Assembly: GCF_000024205.1 (NCBI RefSeq) | Contig: NC_013216.1 | Location: 2,728,001 to 2,792,000, forward strand | Length of the DNA stretch: 64,000 nucleotides | Source of the DNA: Desulfofarcimen acetoxidans DSM 771 | Lineage (GTDB): Bacteria; Bacillota; Desulfotomaculia; Desulfotomaculales; Desulfofarciminaceae | Reading direction: 5' to 3' | In this document: positions 7,055 to 46,040 of the stretch, one piece after another | Layout of the letters: every line of letters begins with the position of its first letter | Position numbering within the stretch: position 1 is the first letter of the stretch | Translations under genes and position numbers: made by a program | Notes under the pieces: model-generated | What the model was told of the DNA's origin: nothing | The model's database searches: none | The model's input: the letters and a program-made list of their open reading frames with translations, nothing else

Positions 7055-7913
7055 CCGAACGCTCGCCTTCTTTCAATTTTTCACGCAGGACATCAAAAAA
7101 ACTTACATCCTTGAGCTTGATAAATTTTGCATTAAAGCTGGCCTTACTAATTAACACTTCATCATTTGGCTGCAGTTTGCAGCCATGCTGGCCATCCACC
7201 GTCAGCATAACCTCTCCCGGTTTATGGGGTATAAGCACTCTGACCAAATTATTTGCCGATATGACCATGGGTCTAGCAGTCAATGTGTGAGGGCAGATGG
7301 GGGTAATCAGCATTACCTCAAGATCAGGAGTAACCAAGGGGCCGCCGGCAGAAAGAGAATATGCTGTAGAACCGGTGGGAGTGGCTACAATCAACCCGTC
7401 CGCAGGGAAGGTTCCCACAAAATCTGAATTGACATAGGTCTCGAGAATTATTAAACGGGCAAAGGCACCCTTGGTAATTACTGCGTCATTAAGGCCTGAT
7501 ACCCTAACTACTGATTGACCGTTTCTGAAAACCCGTGCCTCTAACATCATCCGTTCTTCTATATTGTATTGGCCGGCCAGGAGCTTCTCCAGGCTGCTGG
7601 AAATATCGGGTATGTCTATTTCCGTTAAAAAACCCAAATGTCCCAGATTAATCCCAAATACCGGGATAGACAGCGGTGCCGCCAACCTGGTAGTTTGCAG
7701 CAAAGTACCGTCCCCACCAAACGTTATCAGACAGTCCGCATTTTTTATTATGCCGGAGGAATCAACAGCCAAATCCATCCTACCCAGTGTACGGGCAACT
7801 TGTGCATCTATTAATATTTTACAGGCACGCAATTCCAGCCAGTTTATAGTTTTCTGCACCAGTGAAATTACGCTTTTTTTACTTAGATTCACAGCCAAAC
7901 CGAAGGTTTTCAA
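7047..7913 (-). CDS. nadK: NAD kinase
   Basis: Phosphorylates NAD to NADP with ATP or polyphosphate. 288 residues from TTG at 7913, placed 7 bases after AGGAGG. The GGDGT motif (ITFGGDGTLL, about residues 65-75), the NE-type region INLGHLGFLTEID and GSTAYSLSAGGPLV are all present. It precedes the methyltransferase and argR in one run of tight overlaps. Confidence 0.95.
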   Translation of the reverse strand: MKTFGLAVNLSKKSVISLVQKTINWLELRACKILIDAQVARTLGRMDLAVDSSGIIKNADCLITFGGDGTLLQTTRLAAPLSIPVFGINLGHLGFLTEIDIPDISSSLEKLLAGQYNIEERMMLEARVFRNGQSVVRVSGLNDAVITKGAFARLIILETYVNSDFVGTFPADGLIVATPTGSTAYSLSAGGPLVTPDLEVMLITPICPHTLTARPMVISANNLVRVLIPHKPGEVMLTVDGQHGCKLQPNDEVLISKASFNAKFIKLKDVSFFDVLREKLKEGERSDV

Positions 7914-8013
7914 ACAAAATCCTCCTATCAAAACAAAAAGGCCCGGGCAGTTATAGTATAATTACTGACCCTGACCCTTTCTACGATAACTCTATGAATG
8001 TGCAAGTTGTCTT

Positions 8014-8823
8014 CTAACCAAAAAATTTATGCGCTTGTTCAACTATATAAGGTACGAGCTGTTCTATATCGGGTGGCAAAACATTTTTCTTCGTGAAATA
8101 TAGTAGGTACTCAATATTTCCTTCCGGTCCTCTTATCGGGGAAAAATCAAGGCCCAAGACAGACCAATTCAGTTCATTAACTACAGACAAAATATTAAAG
8201 ATTACATCTATATGCACTGAAGCTTCCCGGACAACACCTTTTTTACCTACTCTTTCCGGTCCTGCCTCGAATTGAGGTTTTATCAAAGCTACGCCTTCAG
8301 CATCAACTGCTGTCAGATGATCCACCTGTGCTAAAACCTTGGCCAGGGAAATAAAAGAAACATCAATAGTCACAAAATCAGGGATATGAGTAAACTTTTC
8401 GGATGACAAATATCTAATATTTGTACGTTCCAGTGAGACAACCCTTAGATCAGTGCGTAAACTCCAGGCTAATTGCCCATAACCAACGTCAACAGCATAT
8501 ACCAGTCGAGCTCCGTGCTGCAGCGCGCAGTCAGTAAAACCTCCGGTGGAAGCACCTACATCCAACACAATCCTTTCCCGCATATCTATTGAAAAAGCAG
8601 TGATAGCTTTTTCCAGTTTGAGGCCACCTCTGCTTACATACTTTAAAGCATTACCTCGCACTTCCACCTGAACACCGGAAGAAACTTGCGTGCCGGCTTT
8701 GTCCATACGCTGATCATTAACATAAATCAGCCCGGCCATAATTGCTGACCGGGCCTTCTCCCGACTCGGAAAAAAACCTTCCCTAACCAGAAAGTTATCC
8801 AGTCTTTCTTTATTGCGAGGCAA
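8014..8823 (-). CDS. tlyA: TlyA-family rRNA 2'-O-methyltransferase
   Basis: 269 residues: S4 RNA-binding domain (about 1-65) followed by an FtsJ-like methyltransferase with DVGASTGGFTDCAL (about 87-100) and the catalytic-lysine neighbourhood ALIKPQFEAG. The family methylates 16S/23S rRNA riboses and is sometimes annotated as a haemolysin. It lies 11 bases after dxs, as in many Firmicutes (yqxC position). Confidence 0.93.
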   Translation of the reverse strand: MPRNKERLDNFLVREGFFPSREKARSAIMAGLIYVNDQRMDKAGTQVSSGVQVEVRGNALKYVSRGGLKLEKAITAFSIDMRERIVLDVGASTGGFTDCALQHGARLVYAVDVGYGQLAWSLRTDLRVVSLERTNIRYLSSEKFTHIPDFVTIDVSFISLAKVLAQVDHLTAVDAEGVALIKPQFEAGPERVGKKGVVREASVHIDVIFNILSVVNELNWSVLGLDFSPIRGPEGNIEYLLYFTKKNVLPPDIEQLVPYIVEQAHKFFG

Positions 8824-8834
8824 AGCAGTCCCTC

Positions 8835-10736
8835 CTAATCAGCTATCAGCTTCAAGGTATTGCTTCTGTAACCTAAAAGCATATTTATTTCTTTGACCAG
8901 CCCTTCGGCAGTCAAACCGTAAATATCCCTGAGCAGCTTGGGATGACCGTGCTCGATAAAATTATCAGGTATGCCTATGCAATGAGTCCTTGTCTTTAAA
9001 CCGCTTGCTGTCAGCAACTCCAAAACAGAACTGCCAAACCCGCCGCTAAGCATATTTTCTTCCACAGTTACCAACAAATTCGTATTGGCAGCCAAATCCA
9101 AAATGCATTTTTCGTCTAAGGGCTTAATAAAACGCGCGTTAACAACGGCAGCGTCAACGCCCTGTTGAGCTAAAATTCTTGCAGCGTCTTCAGCTACCTT
9201 GACCATGTTGCCTATGGCAATTATGGCTATATTTTTTCCTTTACGAACAACTTCCGCCTGTCCAATAGGCAATTCCTTCATTTCTTTATCCAGAACGCAA
9301 CCGGTACCAATGCCGCGCGGAAAACGAAGAGCACACGGGCCCTGAAACTTTACTGCAGTATTCAACATATGTTGAAACTCATTTTCATCTTTAGGTGACA
9401 TAATTACCAGGTTAGGTATCGGGCGCAGGTAAGACAAATCAAATAATCCCTGGTGGGTAGCCCCGTCATCACCAACAATACCGGCCCTGTCAACAGCAAA
9501 AAGGACAGGTAAATTTTGTAAACATACGTCATGAATCACCTGATCATAAGCCCGCTGTAAAAAAGTAGAGTAAATGGCCACCACAGGTTTTAAGCCTGCG
9601 CATGCCATACCAGCAGCCAGAGTAACAGCATGACCTTCAGCTATTCCGACATCAAAAAAACGATCCGGATAAATATTGGCAAATTTTCTCAATCCTGTGC
9701 CATCCGGCATGGCGGCAGTTATAGCCTGAATTCTCCTGTCTGTTTCCGCCAGTTTGACAATTATATCCCCGAAAACTTCCGTATAGGTGACAGTCCCGGT
9801 ACTGTTGATCACATCACCTGTTTCTATCTTAAAAGGCCCCACCCCATGAAACTTATCAGCGTTGCTTTCTGCCGGCAAGTAACCCTTGCCCTTCTGAGTT
9901 TGAACATGTACCAATACAGGTCCTTTACAGGTTTTAGCCTGCTTTAAAAGATTAACAGTAGCCTGGTAATTATGCCCGTCCACCGGTCCCAAATAAGTAA
10001 AACCCAGTTCTTCGAAAAGCATGCCCGGTACTACCAGGTATTTAAAGCTGTCCTTTAATCTGTCTATGACTTTTAAAACCTTGGGACCAATATTAGGGAT
10101 TTTTAACAGCAGCTGTTCAACTTCATCCTTGCTTCTGGAATACATAGGATCAGTGCGAATCCGGCTTAAATAACCGGACATAGCACCTACGTTAGGAGCT
10201 ATTGACATTTCATTGTCATTTAATACGACTATAAGATCCTTCTTAAGATGCCCGGCATGGTTTAATGCCTCAAAGGCCAGTCCTCCGGTCATGGCACCGT
10301 CTCCGATTACGGCAGCCACTGAATGTTTTTCCTTTAGATAATCACGTGCTATCGCAAAGCCCAAGGCGGCAGAAATTGAGGTGCTGCTGTGGCCTGTGCC
10401 AAAACTGTCATAGGCACTCTCAATAAGCCTGGGGAAGCCGCTGATACCACCATACTGGCGCAGAGTGGAAAACCTTTCCTTGCGACCGGTTAACAGTTTA
10501 TGTACATAACACTGGTGTCCTACATCCCAAATTATTTTGTCTTGAGGTAAATTAAAAACCCGGTGCAATGCCAGTGTTAATTCAACTACACCCAAATTAG
10601 GCGCTAAATGACCACCGGTTTCTGATACCGTCTCAATTATTTTTTGACGTATTTCTCCAGCCAACTCATTAATTTGGCTATTATCCAGCAGTCGCAAGTC
10701 CTGGGGTGTTTTTATCATGGCTAATAAACCGTTCAA
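8835..10736 (-). CDS. dxs: 1-deoxy-D-xylulose-5-phosphate synthase
   Basis: Condenses pyruvate and glyceraldehyde 3-phosphate in the first step of the MEP isoprenoid pathway. 633 residues from TTG at 10736, 5 bases after GAGGTGG; this gives an N-terminus [13 protein letters not shown] like relatives, whereas the GTG at 10745 overlaps the ribosome-binding site. The thiamine diphosphate motif begins GDGAMTGG (about residue 150), and the transketolase pyrimidine-binding and C-terminal domains follow. ispA lies upstream beyond oapA and the OLE RNA. Confidence 0.97.
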
Positions 10737-39262: not shown

Positions 39263-39378
39263 GTATTAGTTTGCAGGGGGGGGAATAAGCCGAACTTCCG
39301 TACCTTGTCCGGGAGAACTGTCGATGATCATCTGCCCCCGGTGCAGTTTAACAATTTCATCACAAATAGACAAACCAT
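39263..39378 (-). pseudogene. Duplicated 3' end of a histidine kinase gene
   Basis: About 115 bases are nearly identical to the last part of the kinase gene at 50641 onward (50653-50766), including the blocks GAATAAGCCGAACTTCCGT and GCAGTTTAACAATTTCATCA. It codes the final G-box region of the kinase only and then breaks off next to the stop of the M56-amidase gene. A relic of duplication, not a gene. Confidence 0.85.
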
Positions 39379-39394
39379 AGAATTTTCAATTCCC

Positions 39395-41083
39395 TCACTT
39401 ATCCGTTGCGTCCATTTCATTTAGCACTTCTATTATTCCATCATATATCGCTTGCGCTGTTTTGACTCTGAATTCTCTTGTCATAAGCTTTTCTCGGTCT
39501 GATTTGTTGGTGATATAAGCTACTTGGGTTAAAACTGCAGGCATGTTCACCTGTTCCAGTATCTTAAATCTGGCATTACTTATTCCCAGGTCTATTGTAC
39601 CAAGTTTTTCCACCAGATTCGATTGGATAATTTGCGCTGCTTTTTCTCCGGTAATCCCATAACCGGCTTCATTACCAGAGTAATAATATTGAGTTTTGGT
39701 TCCATTTATTGCACTATCAGGATGCATATCATTATGAATACTGACTAACAAGGCGGCTTTACAGCTATTTGCAAACTCCACCCGCTTTTCCAGTTCCACT
39801 GTTCTGTCATCCTGACGGGTCATCACAACCTTTATGCCTGATTTTTTCAACAAATCAGATAGCAGAAGCGATATTTCCAGATTAAAATCCTTTTCTTTAA
39901 TCTCTATTGATTCAGGATCAGAAGTGTCAAAGGGATATGTACCTCCCCAATCATTTCCGCCATGACCGGGATCAATAACTACCATCATATCCTTTATATT
40001 TTCATTAAACATGCTGTTTCCATCACCTTTAAGAGTACTGCCATTTGCAATGGTAAAAGCTAGAGCTCCGATAATGATAAAGCTCAGGATAGCAAGGGCC
40101 GACAGTTTGTAGGAGCCTTTCCTAAACATTTTTATCATGGTGATTCTCCTCTCCATCTGCTTATTAGTTTCATTAAAACCAGCCAGGATTGATGGTGTGG
40201 AACGATTAGAGAATATACCGGCCAGTTTAAGAAGTGTATTTCCGTAAGGGATTACTGCGGACTCGCCCAATGTTTCCATTACATAAGCATCCGTAGCAAT
40301 CTCCCTGTCATATCTCATCTCCCTAATTGCCAGCCATACGAGAGGATTAAACCAGTGCAGTATGGCGGCCATTGCTGCGCACGAATTGTAGATGAGATCC
40401 TTTCTCTTATAATGAGCCAGTTCATGTAGCAGTACGTGTTCCAACTGATGATGATGTATTTGGCTGCAAATATCTTTGGGCAAATAGATACTTGGACTAA
40501 ATATACCGGCTATACAGGGACCACGAAAATATGAATCCAAATAAAGGGGAATATCCTTTTTGAGCCCTAATCTTACACAACATTGTTGCATTAGTTCAGT
40601 AATCTGAGGGTTATAATCTCTTTCAAATTCTTTACTCCGTCGTTTAAATTTTATGAGCATAATCGAAGCGAACAAGGCTATAGACGTAACCCCGGTAAGC
40701 CAAACTATACTGAGAAGGCCCAGGTTCCAGAGGGAATAATCTCTAGTTTTCTCTTTGTCGTAGTATTCTCCATCTAATTCTTGAAACTCATTGCTATTCA
40801 AATTTCCTGTTCTGAAGTAATCATCTGCTTGATTACTCATATACTCATGGGAATAATTAAATAATGGGTATATTTCGGGAAGAATACTGGTTAAACTATA
40901 TGGGCTTTCAATTTCGAAAGGCACCATAAGTCTGAGTAAAACGAGAAGCCACATCACATGATATACTCTGCCGGACAGGTAACTAGGTAAACACTTCTTG
41001 ACAATCAATAACAGTACGATTATGATGCTAGAAATCAATGAAGAATATAAAATATGAGAAAATATAATACTAAGCATCTCCAT
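39395..41083 (-). CDS. BlaR1-like M56 peptidase fused to an extracellular amidase-3 domain
   Basis: 562 residues. Membrane helices at about 10-28, 42-55, 122-146 and 326-346; between the last two is an M56 zinc protease with HELAH (220-224) and downstream glutamates in REMRYDREIATDAYVM. After the last helix comes an N-acetylmuramoyl-L-alanine amidase (amidase_3) domain, 366-560: zinc ligands His374 (DPGHGG), Glu397 (KEKD) and His450 (VSIHND) are kept. The catalytic Glu of the usual VEVGF motif is Gln520 here (TQVAYITN). So it is likely a cell-wall-ligand sensor built like BlaR1, with a weak or dead amidase as sensor. It follows the BlaI repressor gene in one operon. Confidence 0.85.
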   Translation of the reverse strand: MEMLSIIFSHILYSSLISSIIIVLLLIVKKCLPSYLSGRVYHVMWLLVLLRLMVPFEIESPYSLTSILPEIYPLFNYSHEYMSNQADDYFRTGNLNSNEFQELDGEYYDKEKTRDYSLWNLGLLSIVWLTGVTSIALFASIMLIKFKRRSKEFERDYNPQITELMQQCCVRLGLKKDIPLYLDSYFRGPCIAGIFSPSIYLPKDICSQIHHHQLEHVLLHELAHYKRKDLIYNSCAAMAAILHWFNPLVWLAIREMRYDREIATDAYVMETLGESAVIPYGNTLLKLAGIFSNRSTPSILAGFNETNKQMERRITMIKMFRKGSYKLSALAILSFIIIGALAFTIANGSTLKGDGNSMFNENIKDMMVVIDPGHGGNDWGGTYPFDTSDPESIEIKEKDFNLEISLLLSDLLKKSGIKVVMTRQDDRTVELEKRVEFANSCKAALLVSIHNDMHPDSAINGTKTQYYYSGNEAGYGITGEKAAQIIQSNLVEKLGTIDLGISNARFKILEQVNMPAVLTQVAYITNKSDREKLMTREFRVKTAQAIYDGIIEVLNEMDATDK

Positions 41084-41130: not shown

Positions 41131-41505
41131 CTATTTACGTTTCTTGCCTTCTAATAGGTTTTTAAGCTTGGCAATTTCCTCCTCGGACAAAGCCTTTTCC
41201 TCAATAAAGTTGGCAAAAAACATTGCTGCCGCGCCGTCGTACACCCTTTCAATAAAATTTTTACTTTCAGCCAACACGCATTCTTTCTCAGATATGGTTG
41301 GATAGTATACATAGCTGCGACTGGTTTTTTCATATCCTATTGCGCCTTTTTTCAGAAGTCTGTTGATAAATGTTTTTATAGTTTGGGGCGACCAGTCTTT
41401 TTTTTCAGACAGAGAGGCAATTATTTCTTCAGATGTCAGTGGGCTGCTCTTCCATATGACTTTCATGACTTCCCATTCTGAGTCAGATATCTTGGGGATA
41501 CTCAA
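41131..41505 (-). CDS. blaI: BlaI/MecI-family transcriptional repressor
   Basis: 124 residues from TTG at 41505, 7 bases after GGAGGG. N-terminal winged helix (ISDSEWEVMKVIWK, WSPQTIKTFINRLLKKGAIGYEK) and C-terminal dimerisation part with VLAESKNFIERVYDGAAAMFFANFIEE. Repressors of this family are cleaved after the partner M56 sensor is activated. The partner gene follows directly. Two TACA-NN-TGTA operators lie just upstream. Confidence 0.93.
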   Translation of the reverse strand: MSIPKISDSEWEVMKVIWKSSPLTSEEIIASLSEKKDWSPQTIKTFINRLLKKGAIGYEKTSRSYVYYPTISEKECVLAESKNFIERVYDGAAAMFFANFIEEKALSEEEIAKLKNLLEGKKRK

Positions 41506-41531
41506 GACGCTTCCCTCCAATGTCTATTGAT

Positions 41532-41582
41532 TACACATGTAAACTCTTACTACAGTTTACATGTGTAATCGTAAAAAGTCAA
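41532..41582 (-). promoter_or_regulatory. Promoter with two BlaI-type operators
   Basis: Minus strand: -35 TTGACT (41582-41577), 17-base gap, -10 TAAACT (41559-41554). Operators TACATGTGTA (41558-41567, over the -10 region and spacer) and TACACATGTA (41532-41541, just downstream of the start) form one long inverted repeat with centres 26 bases apart. TACA-NN-TGTA is the known BlaI/MecI half-site arrangement, so this operon should repress itself. Confidence 0.8.
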
Positions 41583-42969: not shown

Positions 42970-44724
42970 TCAAGGTAGCTCTGGCAAACCAAGTTCCTTC
43001 AAGAACTGATTATGCTTTGCCTTTGCCCTTTTTATGGCATCTTCAGTTTCGTCAAGTTTCTTTTTCACATCCGCAAGATCAACAATTTCTTCTTCCGCAG
43101 CTGTGCTCACATATCTTGATATGTTGAGATTGAAACCGTTCTTTTCAATCTCTTTCATTGACACGCGACGAGAATATTTCTTGTCCTCTTCTTTACGGAA
43201 CTGATAGGTGTCAACAATCTTGTCTATATGCTCAGGTAGCAAGATATTTTGACGTTTACCTTTATCAAAGTATTCGCTCGCATTAATAAATAGCACGTCG
43301 TCGAATTTCTTGCACTTTTTAAGCACAAGAATGCAAACCGGAATGCCTGTTGAGAAAAAGAGATTTGCGGGCAACCCAATAATAGTGTCGATATTCCCAT
43401 CTTCGAGTAGCTTCGTTCTGATTTTTTCTTCTGCACCACCACGGAATAAAACACCATGAGGCAAAATAATTGCCATCGTGCCTTCATCACTCAAAAAGTG
43501 GAATCCATGTAGCAGAAAGGCAAAGTCAGCCGCTGATTTTGGGGCAAGTCCATAACTTTTAAAGCGGAAATCTTCGGCCAGTGTATCGTTAGGCTCCCAG
43601 CGGTAGCTGAAAGGAGGATTTGCAACGACTGCGTCACATTTCAATTTTTTTGCCGGGTTCATCTCGTTTAAGATATCCCAATCATTCAACAGTGAGTCTC
43701 CGTGAAAGATTTGAAACTCAGAATCCTTAAATCTATGAAGAAGCATGTTCATGCGTGCAAGGTTGTAAGTTGTTATGTTCTTTTCTTGCCCATATATTTG
43801 ACTAATACTGTTTGGTTCAAGATGCTTTTTAACATTGATTAACAACGAAGCTGAACCACAAGCAAAATCCAACAAATTATTAATATATGGCTTTTTGCCT
43901 GTACTGGGATCTTGGCTATCAAGTATAACAATGCGCGACAGGATGTTGGAGATCTGCTGAGGAGTATAGAACTCTCCGGCTTTTTTACCCGAGCCTGACG
44001 CAAATTGGCCAATCAAGTATTCATAGGCATTTCCCAAAAGATCGGTTTCGTTAGTAAACTCAGAAAGCCCCTCGGCAATTTCAGTTATGATTGAACACAG
44101 CATAGTGTTGCGAGCTTCATAATTTCTTCCAAGCTTGTCGGAATCGAGATTGACTTCGGAAAACAAACCACGAAATGCGCTGTCAAAGGACTCATTTTCT
44201 ATAAACTTAAAACCGGCTTGCAAAGTTTGCAAAAGATACTTGCTTTGAGTGCGGGCTAATTCGTATATGTTGCTCCAAAGATAGTGAGGTTTGATTACAA
44301 AATGAACTTTACGACGCATTTGTTTTTCAAACGTCACAATTTGATCTAAATTTTTATTATACCAAACAATAAGCGGAGTTAACTTTTTACTTTCAAACAA
44401 TACAAGATGATCGTCAATCATCATATTTTTTACGTTTTCCTCTAATTCCTGTTTGATAAAATAATCCGTTACCTGTTCTTTCAATAGACTAATAGTCTCG
44501 TCTTGCTTGCCAGCATTATAAATACTTTCTATTTCATTTTCACATTGCAAATAATCGCTGCCAAGTTCTTTTTTTGCTGCTTCCTCATAATTGTCTGACA
44601 GATAGCGCAAGAAAAGAAAGGACAGCATATAATCACGGAAGTCATCGGGATTCATGGCCCCGCGCAGTTTGTCGGCTATAGCCCATAGGGTTGCGCCTAA
44701 TTGTTTTTGTTGTGTGTCGTTCAT
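42970..44724 (-). CDS. hsdM: Type I restriction-modification system, methyltransferase subunit
   Basis: 584 residues. N-terminal HsdM helical domain (KLRGAMNPDDFRDYMLSFLF), SAM motif I LLDFACGSASLL, catalytic motif IV NPPF followed by SYRWEPND, and the C-terminal coiled region KKKLDETEDAIKRAKAKHN. It makes N6-adenine marks with HsdS. The ATG overlaps the stop of the PrrC-like gene (ATGA), so translation is coupled. Here hsdM is the last gene of the locus (hsdR-hsdS-prrC-like-hsdM), an unusual order. Confidence 0.96.
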   Translation of the reverse strand: MNDTQQKQLGATLWAIADKLRGAMNPDDFRDYMLSFLFLRYLSDNYEEAAKKELGSDYLQCENEIESIYNAGKQDETISLLKEQVTDYFIKQELEENVKNMMIDDHLVLFESKKLTPLIVWYNKNLDQIVTFEKQMRRKVHFVIKPHYLWSNIYELARTQSKYLLQTLQAGFKFIENESFDSAFRGLFSEVNLDSDKLGRNYEARNTMLCSIITEIAEGLSEFTNETDLLGNAYEYLIGQFASGSGKKAGEFYTPQQISNILSRIVILDSQDPSTGKKPYINNLLDFACGSASLLINVKKHLEPNSISQIYGQEKNITTYNLARMNMLLHRFKDSEFQIFHGDSLLNDWDILNEMNPAKKLKCDAVVANPPFSYRWEPNDTLAEDFRFKSYGLAPKSAADFAFLLHGFHFLSDEGTMAIILPHGVLFRGGAEEKIRTKLLEDGNIDTIIGLPANLFFSTGIPVCILVLKKCKKFDDVLFINASEYFDKGKRQNILLPEHIDKIVDTYQFRKEEDKKYSRRVSMKEIEKNGFNLNISRYVSTAAEEEIVDLADVKKKLDETEDAIKRAKAKHNQFLKELGLPELP

Positions 44725-46040
44725 TCTTGTGCCTCCTGACCTTGTTCATCCATGAACAGATTTTGATTGAAATTGTTATCTTCTAAAAAGTTATTTAATA
44801 TTCTTTTAAAGTGATCCTTGTTCTCTTCGACCATTTCTTTGGGGTCGAAAAGGGAATAATTACCATGACTCAAAAGGTCGAGTATTCTTTTGTGCACAGG
44901 GTCATCCTCGTCCTCCCCTTTTCTTATGCACGAAGAAAAATGCGCAAAGCCATGAAAAGACGCGGTCTTTTCTAATATGTTTCTAAGGATATTAAAGTGA
45001 TATGTATACAACTCGCCTGTATCAGCTGCCTTTTTTAATTCCTTCAGCAACGCAACATGATGAAAAAACGGAGTTTTTCTTGTATCTTTAAGGATATATG
45101 TACCATTCGTAGTGTTTCTATGCAAAAACATTTGCTCAGCATTACTAATTTCATTGCATAAAACATTGAAAAACAATGCATGGTGCGACGATACAATTAC
45201 TTTGACGTCATTGTCGCTCATTAGCCTTGCCAAATGGCTTGCGACAGCAATAACATTATTGTCATCAAGCGAGGAAATCGGGTCGTCCACATAAATATAT
45301 TTTACCCAATTATACGATTCAACATTATCTACAACTAATTGGACAACGGCTAGGAAGAACCACCAAATGAAGATGTTTTCCTCCCCACGAGATATTTTTA
45401 TATTATCAACCCTTTGAGTGGTGCCAGAAATTAACGCATCTCTGAAAAAGCTAATTTCCCAACTCTCATAATTGATAGTAAAATCGAAATCTACATACCT
45501 ATGCAGCAAAGGGCGGATTCTGCTTTCCATTTCCAAATCTTTGAGTCCCGAAAAAAATCTGGAATTGCTATTTAGCTTTAACAGGCGCTCGGCGTCGTTA
45601 TCCAAATCATTATCCCAATAAAAAAGGTCTTCGGTAAACGCATTATAGTATAGCGTATCAGCCGTTTTCTCACCTGTCTCTTCAATAATCTGCTGCCCCA
45701 AAGATTTGAACTCCACAGAAAGCCTTGTCTTGCCTGTGCCGTTATAGGCAAACAATACAATATATTTCTTCTCTTCAAGCAGCATTCTTAAATACTTGGC
45801 TATATCTTTGAGCGAATCAAATTGTTTGTTGTTTTCTATTCTCTTAAGAACAAAATCCAATTTTGCAAGCAGCTCATCAGATAACCCCTCTTTCAAGCTG
45901 TATTGTTCCGCACCTCTTGGGCATTTATAATTGTCAGTAAACAGTTTTTTATATTGTTGGAAATTATCATTATTAAGCTTTTTGTTGGTAAGCTTTTTAA
46001 AATCCTCTTTCGAGAAAGCGGATGGGACGTTTATGCTCAC
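44721..46040 (-). CDS. PrrC-like anticodon nuclease (ABC-ATPase with RNase motif)
   Basis: 439 residues from GTG at 46040, overlapping the hsdS stop (GTGA). N-terminal ATPase: Walker A YNGTGKT at 99-105, signature-like ISRGEE at 216-221, Walker B IYVDDPISSLDD from 249, and switch His in SSHH at 284-287. After it, Arg353 and Glu357 (LRNILEK) and His392 (LLSHGNY) match the Arg-x3-Glu...His pattern of the PrrC anticodon nuclease (Arg320, Glu324, His356 in E. coli). PrrC cleaves tRNA-Lys when a phage blocks the associated type I enzyme. The position inside a type I locus agrees. The tRNA target cannot be told. Confidence 0.78.
   Translation of the reverse strand: MSINVPSAFSKEDFKKLTNKKLNNDNFQQYKKLFTDNYKCPRGAEQYSLKEGLSDELLAKLDFVLKRIENNKQFDSLKDIAKYLRMLLEEKKYIVLFAYNGTGKTRLSVEFKSLGQQIIEETGEKTADTLYYNAFTEDLFYWDNDLDNDAERLLKLNSNSRFFSGLKDLEMESRIRPLLHRYVDFDFTINYESWEISFFRDALISGTTQRVDNIKISRGEENIFIWWFFLAVVQLVVDNVESYNWVKYIYVDDPISSLDDNNVIAVASHLARLMSDNDVKVIVSSHHALFFNVLCNEISNAEQMFLHRNTTNGTYILKDTRKTPFFHHVALLKELKKAADTGELYTYHFNILRNILEKTASFHGFAHFSSCIRKGEDEDDPVHKRILDLLSHGNYSLFDPKEMVEENKDHFKRILNNFLEDNNFNQNLFMDEQGQEAQE

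Follow-up and report, generated by a model that had tools for sequence, protein, structure and literature searches.

What would an amidase domain do at the end of a BlaR1-type membrane protease once its catalytic residue has been replaced? The question is raised by a 562-aa protein with an ATG start, encoded on the reverse strand of Desulfofarcimen acetoxidans DSM 771 at 39395..41083 of the 64,000-nucleotide stretch analyzed here (the window, in whose numbering all positions without a locus prefix are given). A first-pass annotation had described a BlaR1 layout with a BlaI partner and an amidase fold in the sensor position, and each of these elements holds. Pfam identifies a Peptidase_M56 domain (E 6e-54) at residues 11-317 (40133..41053, reverse strand), which also aligns with BlaR1, and an Amidase_3 domain (E 9e-48) at residues 368-551 (39431..39982, reverse strand) in the C-terminal sensor place, while the adjoining gene encodes a Penicillinase_R/BlaI protein (E 2e-36); all three matches lie well over the Pfam cut-offs. 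The full-length AF2 model has a mean pLDDT of 77, with the amidase and M56 parts mostly above 85 and weak stretches at the first extracellular loop (EL1), the autocleavage loop and the interdomain linker, and Foldseek matches it both to amidases and to the BlaR1 cryo-EM structures. EL1 (putatively residues 57-118; 40730..40915, reverse strand), positioned by analogy with BlaR1, is predicted to be disordered, and its EYYDKEK motif is invariant except for the first residues among the four close orthologues.

Two neighboring features of the locus are recorded here in passing. The sequence directly after the sensor gene (39266-39382, reverse strand) encodes what is left of the C-terminal part of a histidine kinase (GLSICDEIVKLHRGQMIIDSSPGQGTEVRLI, HATPase_c E 1.4e-6), the remainder of the kinase being missing. 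Upstream of the module, an HsdM-like Type I methylase gene beside an AAA_13 ATPase gene (42970-46040, reverse strand) likely represents a restriction or defense locus.

When the sensor domain is aligned with the amidase structures of CwlV (1jwq), Clostridium difficile CD2761 (4rn7), AmiC2 (5emi) and Cwp6 (5j72), H374, E397 and H450 coincide with the zinc ligands, and Q520 (codon 39524..39526, reverse strand) falls exactly at the position of the conserved catalytic Glu, with no gaps nearby, just as had been proposed from the sequence of the window. The domain thus has the fold and the three zinc ligands of the Amidase_3 family and lacks the catalytic Glu of the last motif, and in the four alignments no neighboring Glu appears to take the catalytic place. 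It also carries D452 at a site that is invariantly Asn in ordinary amidases. Modeled in isolation, the domain reaches a mean pLDDT of 93.5 and a Foldseek TM-score of 0.92 to CwlV (target-normalized). In the CwlV, CD2761, AmiC2 and Cwp6 structures the catalytic Glu holds the zinc-bound water (PMC8496864). The E199A mutant of CwlD is nonfunctional at normal protein level, and zinc-ligand mutants lose zinc and destabilize the complex with the partner protein (PMC8496864); the loss of Glu and retention of the zinc ligands in fusions such as this one follow the same split. Chance or a sequencing error at codon 520 can be ruled out because the orthologues lack the Glu as well, the three nearest having Ala and that of Geosporobacter having His. 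The sole close candidate for a compensating Glu, E510, was also rejected: outside the window protein and its three close orthologues, which share this Glu, the fusions carry Thr, Lys, Asp or Ser at the position, so it is not a general substitute.

The transducer half, judged by alignment to Staphylococcus aureus BlaR1 (8exp), looks functional and fits the BlaR1/MecR1 receptor family. HELAH 220-224, D229, E261, D265, Y280 and R312/R313 correspond to BlaR1 H201, E202, H205, D210, E242, D246, Y261, R293 and R294, and F303 in the autocleavage loop aligns with BlaR1 F284, a hydrophobic P1' residue; the catalytic, supporting and autocleavage-loop roles of these residues are taken from the S. aureus protein (PMC9834060). 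All ten functional positions compared, F303 among them, are invariant across the nine fusion proteins described below. The blaI gene (41131..41505, reverse strand) lies 47 bp upstream of the sensor ORF and probably starts at the TTG at 41505 rather than at 41520, because GGAGGG immediately precedes the former and the orthologues are 124 aa long. Its product has Asn-Phe at the BlaR1 cleavage position, as does the repressor in every fusion locus where BlaI could be read.

Two operator boxes, TACACATGTA (41532..41541) and TACATGTGTA (41558..41567), stand 26 bp apart, the second overlapping a promoter-like TTGACT-17-TAAACT (41554..41582, reverse strand) that matches at 9 of 12 positions, such sites being no commoner than chance regionally. 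The D. acetoxidans genome contains a single exact box pair (TACANNTGTA), the one at the promoter of the module itself, and similar pairs (exact or with one to two mismatches) are found upstream of blaI in related loci, including those of M56 relatives with other sensors. A wider regulon was considered and rejected: the strict pair is single in the genome, the other five single boxes are mostly intragenic, and a reversed control pattern gives three. Because the pair sits only at the module's own promoter, the genome-wide operator-pair search reveals no output gene in D. acetoxidans beyond the module itself. At Clostridium thermocellum BlaI targets two neighboring inverted repeats seem to be strictly required (PMC8457756), which together with the single pair found here suggests that the D. 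acetoxidans regulon may be the module operon alone.

In two orthologue loci (L074:9064-11175 and L015:2691-4050) the region of the blaI operator is flanked by genes of Cu_amine_oxidN1 type whose transcription runs away from it; they are assigned by Pfam in the former and apparently broken in the latter. An operator of this type also accompanies close M56 relatives (L017:5001-7217 and 7718-9976; L018:319-2652) that have long C-terminal regions, two of which were scanned and gave no Pfam match. The BlaI proteins of these relatives carry Lys-Phe, not Asn-Phe, and the relatives are other sensor swaps.

Besides the window protein we found eight further M56-Amidase_3 fusions, a type of protein for which the literature searched contained no published description. 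Three genomes of the same order, one of them Desulfotruncus arcticus, encode fusions 74-78% identical to the window protein with an adjacent BlaI; Geosporobacter ferrireducens encodes a full fusion with an adjacent BlaI at about 45% identity; and another class of the phylum contributes L023, L024 and L025, all with an adjacent BlaI, and the partial L026, whose contig stops before BlaI. Two more candidates (L013 and L014) were left unscored, their contig ends preceding the sensor. The distribution is patchy: of the 113 genomes of the order that were searched, just four, that of the window included, have a full fusion. None were found in two further classes (26 and 83 genomes), no plasmid record covered 80% of the protein, and viral contigs contained only distant M56 proteins and not the fusion.

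All nine fusions retain the three zinc ligands. The Glu site is occupied by Gln in the window protein, Ala in each of its three nearest orthologues, His in Geosporobacter (L016), Asp in L025, Asn in L026 and Glu in L023 and L024, whereas it is Glu in 28 of 28 ordinary amidases (25 full-length solo proteins from the same genomes and three from the PDB). The first-pass annotation had suggested surveying such fusions for joint loss of the Glu; the loss is indeed frequent (seven of nine fusions, or about four of six lineages), but it is not universal, as L023 and L024 show. Fisher's exact test gives p values of 3e-6 by sequence and 3e-4 by the six fusion lineages, which are to be read as indications rather than strict probabilities because the solo amidases were not thinned. 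Site 452 follows a similar pattern, being Asn in all 28 ordinary amidases and Asp or Glu in seven of the nine fusions. L024 retains both the Glu and Asn452 and, on its sequence, may hydrolyze peptidoglycan. Since two members keep the Glu, the architecture does not depend on losing it, and some fusions may be active or bifunctional. In L024 and L025 the fusion is followed in the same direction, after gaps of 80 and 193 bp, by a gene for a secreted SH3/Cu_amine_oxidN1/Amidase_3 protein with an intact Glu, hinting at control of an autolysin by the module. L023 (L077:5433-7586) has a DUF881 domain (E 3e-41) at residues 575-714, after the amidase, making it a three-domain M56-Amidase_3-DUF881 protein.

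The repeated loss of the cutting residue with the zinc site kept suggests, at the level of sequence, that a wall-cutting enzyme became a wall sensor, and we lean toward describing the window protein as a hydrolase turned peptidoglycan receptor in a BlaI-controlled two-gene module, where it would trigger BlaI cleavage. The amidase domain very probably does not cut peptidoglycan: with the general-base Glu gone and the zinc and fold retained, the extracellular domain would bind its substrate uncut. Peptidoglycan or one of its fragments is, we think, a fairly probable ligand, in the form of the MurNAc-L-Ala of peptidoglycan strands or of soluble muropeptides, the fold being what points to peptidoglycan binding. 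Occupancy of the sensor would be relayed across the membrane to the protease, as in BlaR1 with a beta-lactam, and the cytosolic gluzincin site would cut BlaI at Asn-Phe; we infer both the direction of this signal and the cleavage. The operon would thereby be derepressed and, in the two relatives with a secreted downstream amidase, probably that gene too.

Retention of the zinc ligands in all fusions, of Glu in L023 and L024 and of an acidic Asp in L025 would also be expected of a membrane-tethered, very slow amidase, in which slow zinc-only turnover would be the signal in the manner of the BlaR1 acyl-enzyme, BlaR1 being known to sense through acylation of its sensor (PMC9834060). This is unlikely, however, given that the Ala of three orthologues and the Asn of another are unable to serve as a general base, that CwlD E199A is nonfunctional (PMC8496864) and that Asn452 has been lost as well.

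The fusions further differ from solo amidases around the active site. A rim insertion at 384-391 is specific to the fusion clade, and Y383, K396, N460, T496 and R530 are invariant among fusions but not among solo amidases. Such features could mark a partner-binding module on which, for example, a hydrolase or an activator docks as GerS does with CwlD, the signal then being a protein, and structures of complexes with protein partners do exist for the Amidase_3 proteins CwlD and LytH (7rag, 7tj4); yet the fusion loci have no conserved companion gene except BlaI, and we hold this to be quite unlikely. The same rim, conserved along with the substrate-side fold, also speaks against a domain whose three-ligand site would be a sensor for zinc or another metal within a metal-responsive BlaI system. 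That explanation would account for the invariant zinc ligands, and it could draw on the relationship of BlaI to the copper repressor CopY and on CwlD, which is zinc-loaded only when with its partner (PMC8496864), but inspection by eye found no recognizable metal transporter or chaperone gene directly adjoining the fusion loci, and we consider it improbable.

The history of the fusions can be followed in the amidase-domain tree, where they form one clade (support 100/100) with three membrane-anchored proteins, L019, L027 and L028, that are without M56 and keep the Glu. L019 and L028 start with an apparent M56-domain tail (RRIxxxK...SY) and the region before the amidase domain of L027 is interrupted by stops, so all three look like shortened fusions. 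The Glu-site trait changes four times on this tree (three to four times over bootstraps), which probably corresponds to three or four losses of Glu; we read these changes, whose counts alone carry no direction, as losses rather than gains because all outgroups have Glu. The most economical history has an active amidase fused once to the protease, after which Glu was lost repeatedly in the proteins with the protease attached; a single fusion is consistent with the M56 tree but is not proved by it. Among the four close orthologues dN/dS is 0.17-0.33 in the amidase part, similar to the M56 part and indicative of purifying selection, so losing its Glu has not led the amidase domain into decay. It is accordingly very doubtful that D. 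acetoxidans harbors a decaying module with a jobless sensor and a Glu lost through decay, as its own operon being the only visible target, the kinase remnant after the gene and the patchy distribution (four of the 113 genomes in the order, that of the window included) might suggest, for dN/dS is about 0.2-0.3 in both domains and the fusions keep the zinc ligands, protease residues, BlaI site and operators. The fuller account, in which a single fusion of an amidase to a BlaR1-type protease was followed by several independent losses of hydrolysis under continued constraint on the zinc and substrate sites, amounting to a recurrent conversion of enzyme to peptidoglycan receptor signaling via BlaI proteolysis, stands in our judgment at an even balance.

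Peptidoglycan hydrolase domains have been linked to M56 before, in the M23-M56 architectures, but there the domain is an M23 peptidase and not an amidase, and the section of PMC9662197 cited here notes it as a domain combination only, describing neither a role in signaling nor any catalytic loss. Like the Amidase_3 N-acetylmuramoyl-L-alanine amidases CwlV, CwlD, AmiC2 and LytH, the window protein has the fold and zinc ligands; it differs from them in the replacement of the catalytic Glu and the invariant Asn, in its fusion to a membrane protease and in the clade-specific rim insertion. The regulatory arrangement resembles that of C. thermocellum BlaI_0696 and BlaI_1845, which have paired inverted-repeat sites at regulated promoters and regulons of one or a few operons including their own module (PMC8457756), albeit with another operator sequence and with no sensor domains described in the sections consulted. 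Bacillus licheniformis likewise has a BlaI system that answers a peptidoglycan-derived dipeptide, but that dipeptide is cytoplasmic and binds BlaI/MecI itself (PMC3305447), whereas here contact with the wall is proposed to occur outside, via the receptor.

The closest parallel remains BlaR1/MecR1 with BlaI/MecI. The systems share an M56 transmembrane gluzincin with matching catalytic, autocleavage-loop and arginine residues, a BlaI Asn-Phe site with an operator at the repressor's promoter, and an extracellular C-terminal sensor derived from an enzyme fold. They differ in that the sensor here is a zinc amidase fold and not a penicillin-binding one, with no transpeptidase match in Pfam, that no beta-lactamase or mecA gene is adjacent, and that the window protein falls below the NCBIfam cut-offs, reaching 191 bits where the generic BlaR1 model requires 400. 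If the proposed reading is true, the module would be a direct bacterial wall sensor beyond the beta-lactam context. The repeated loss of Glu would provide a built-in control, allowing fusions with and without this residue to be set against each other. The 2023 paper on the BlaR1 structure (PMC9834060) names as outstanding the question of how the signal passes from outside to the protease inside, and a natural sensor swap on a conserved transducer offers a second system, with a noncovalent ligand, in which BlaR1 signal transfer can be tested.
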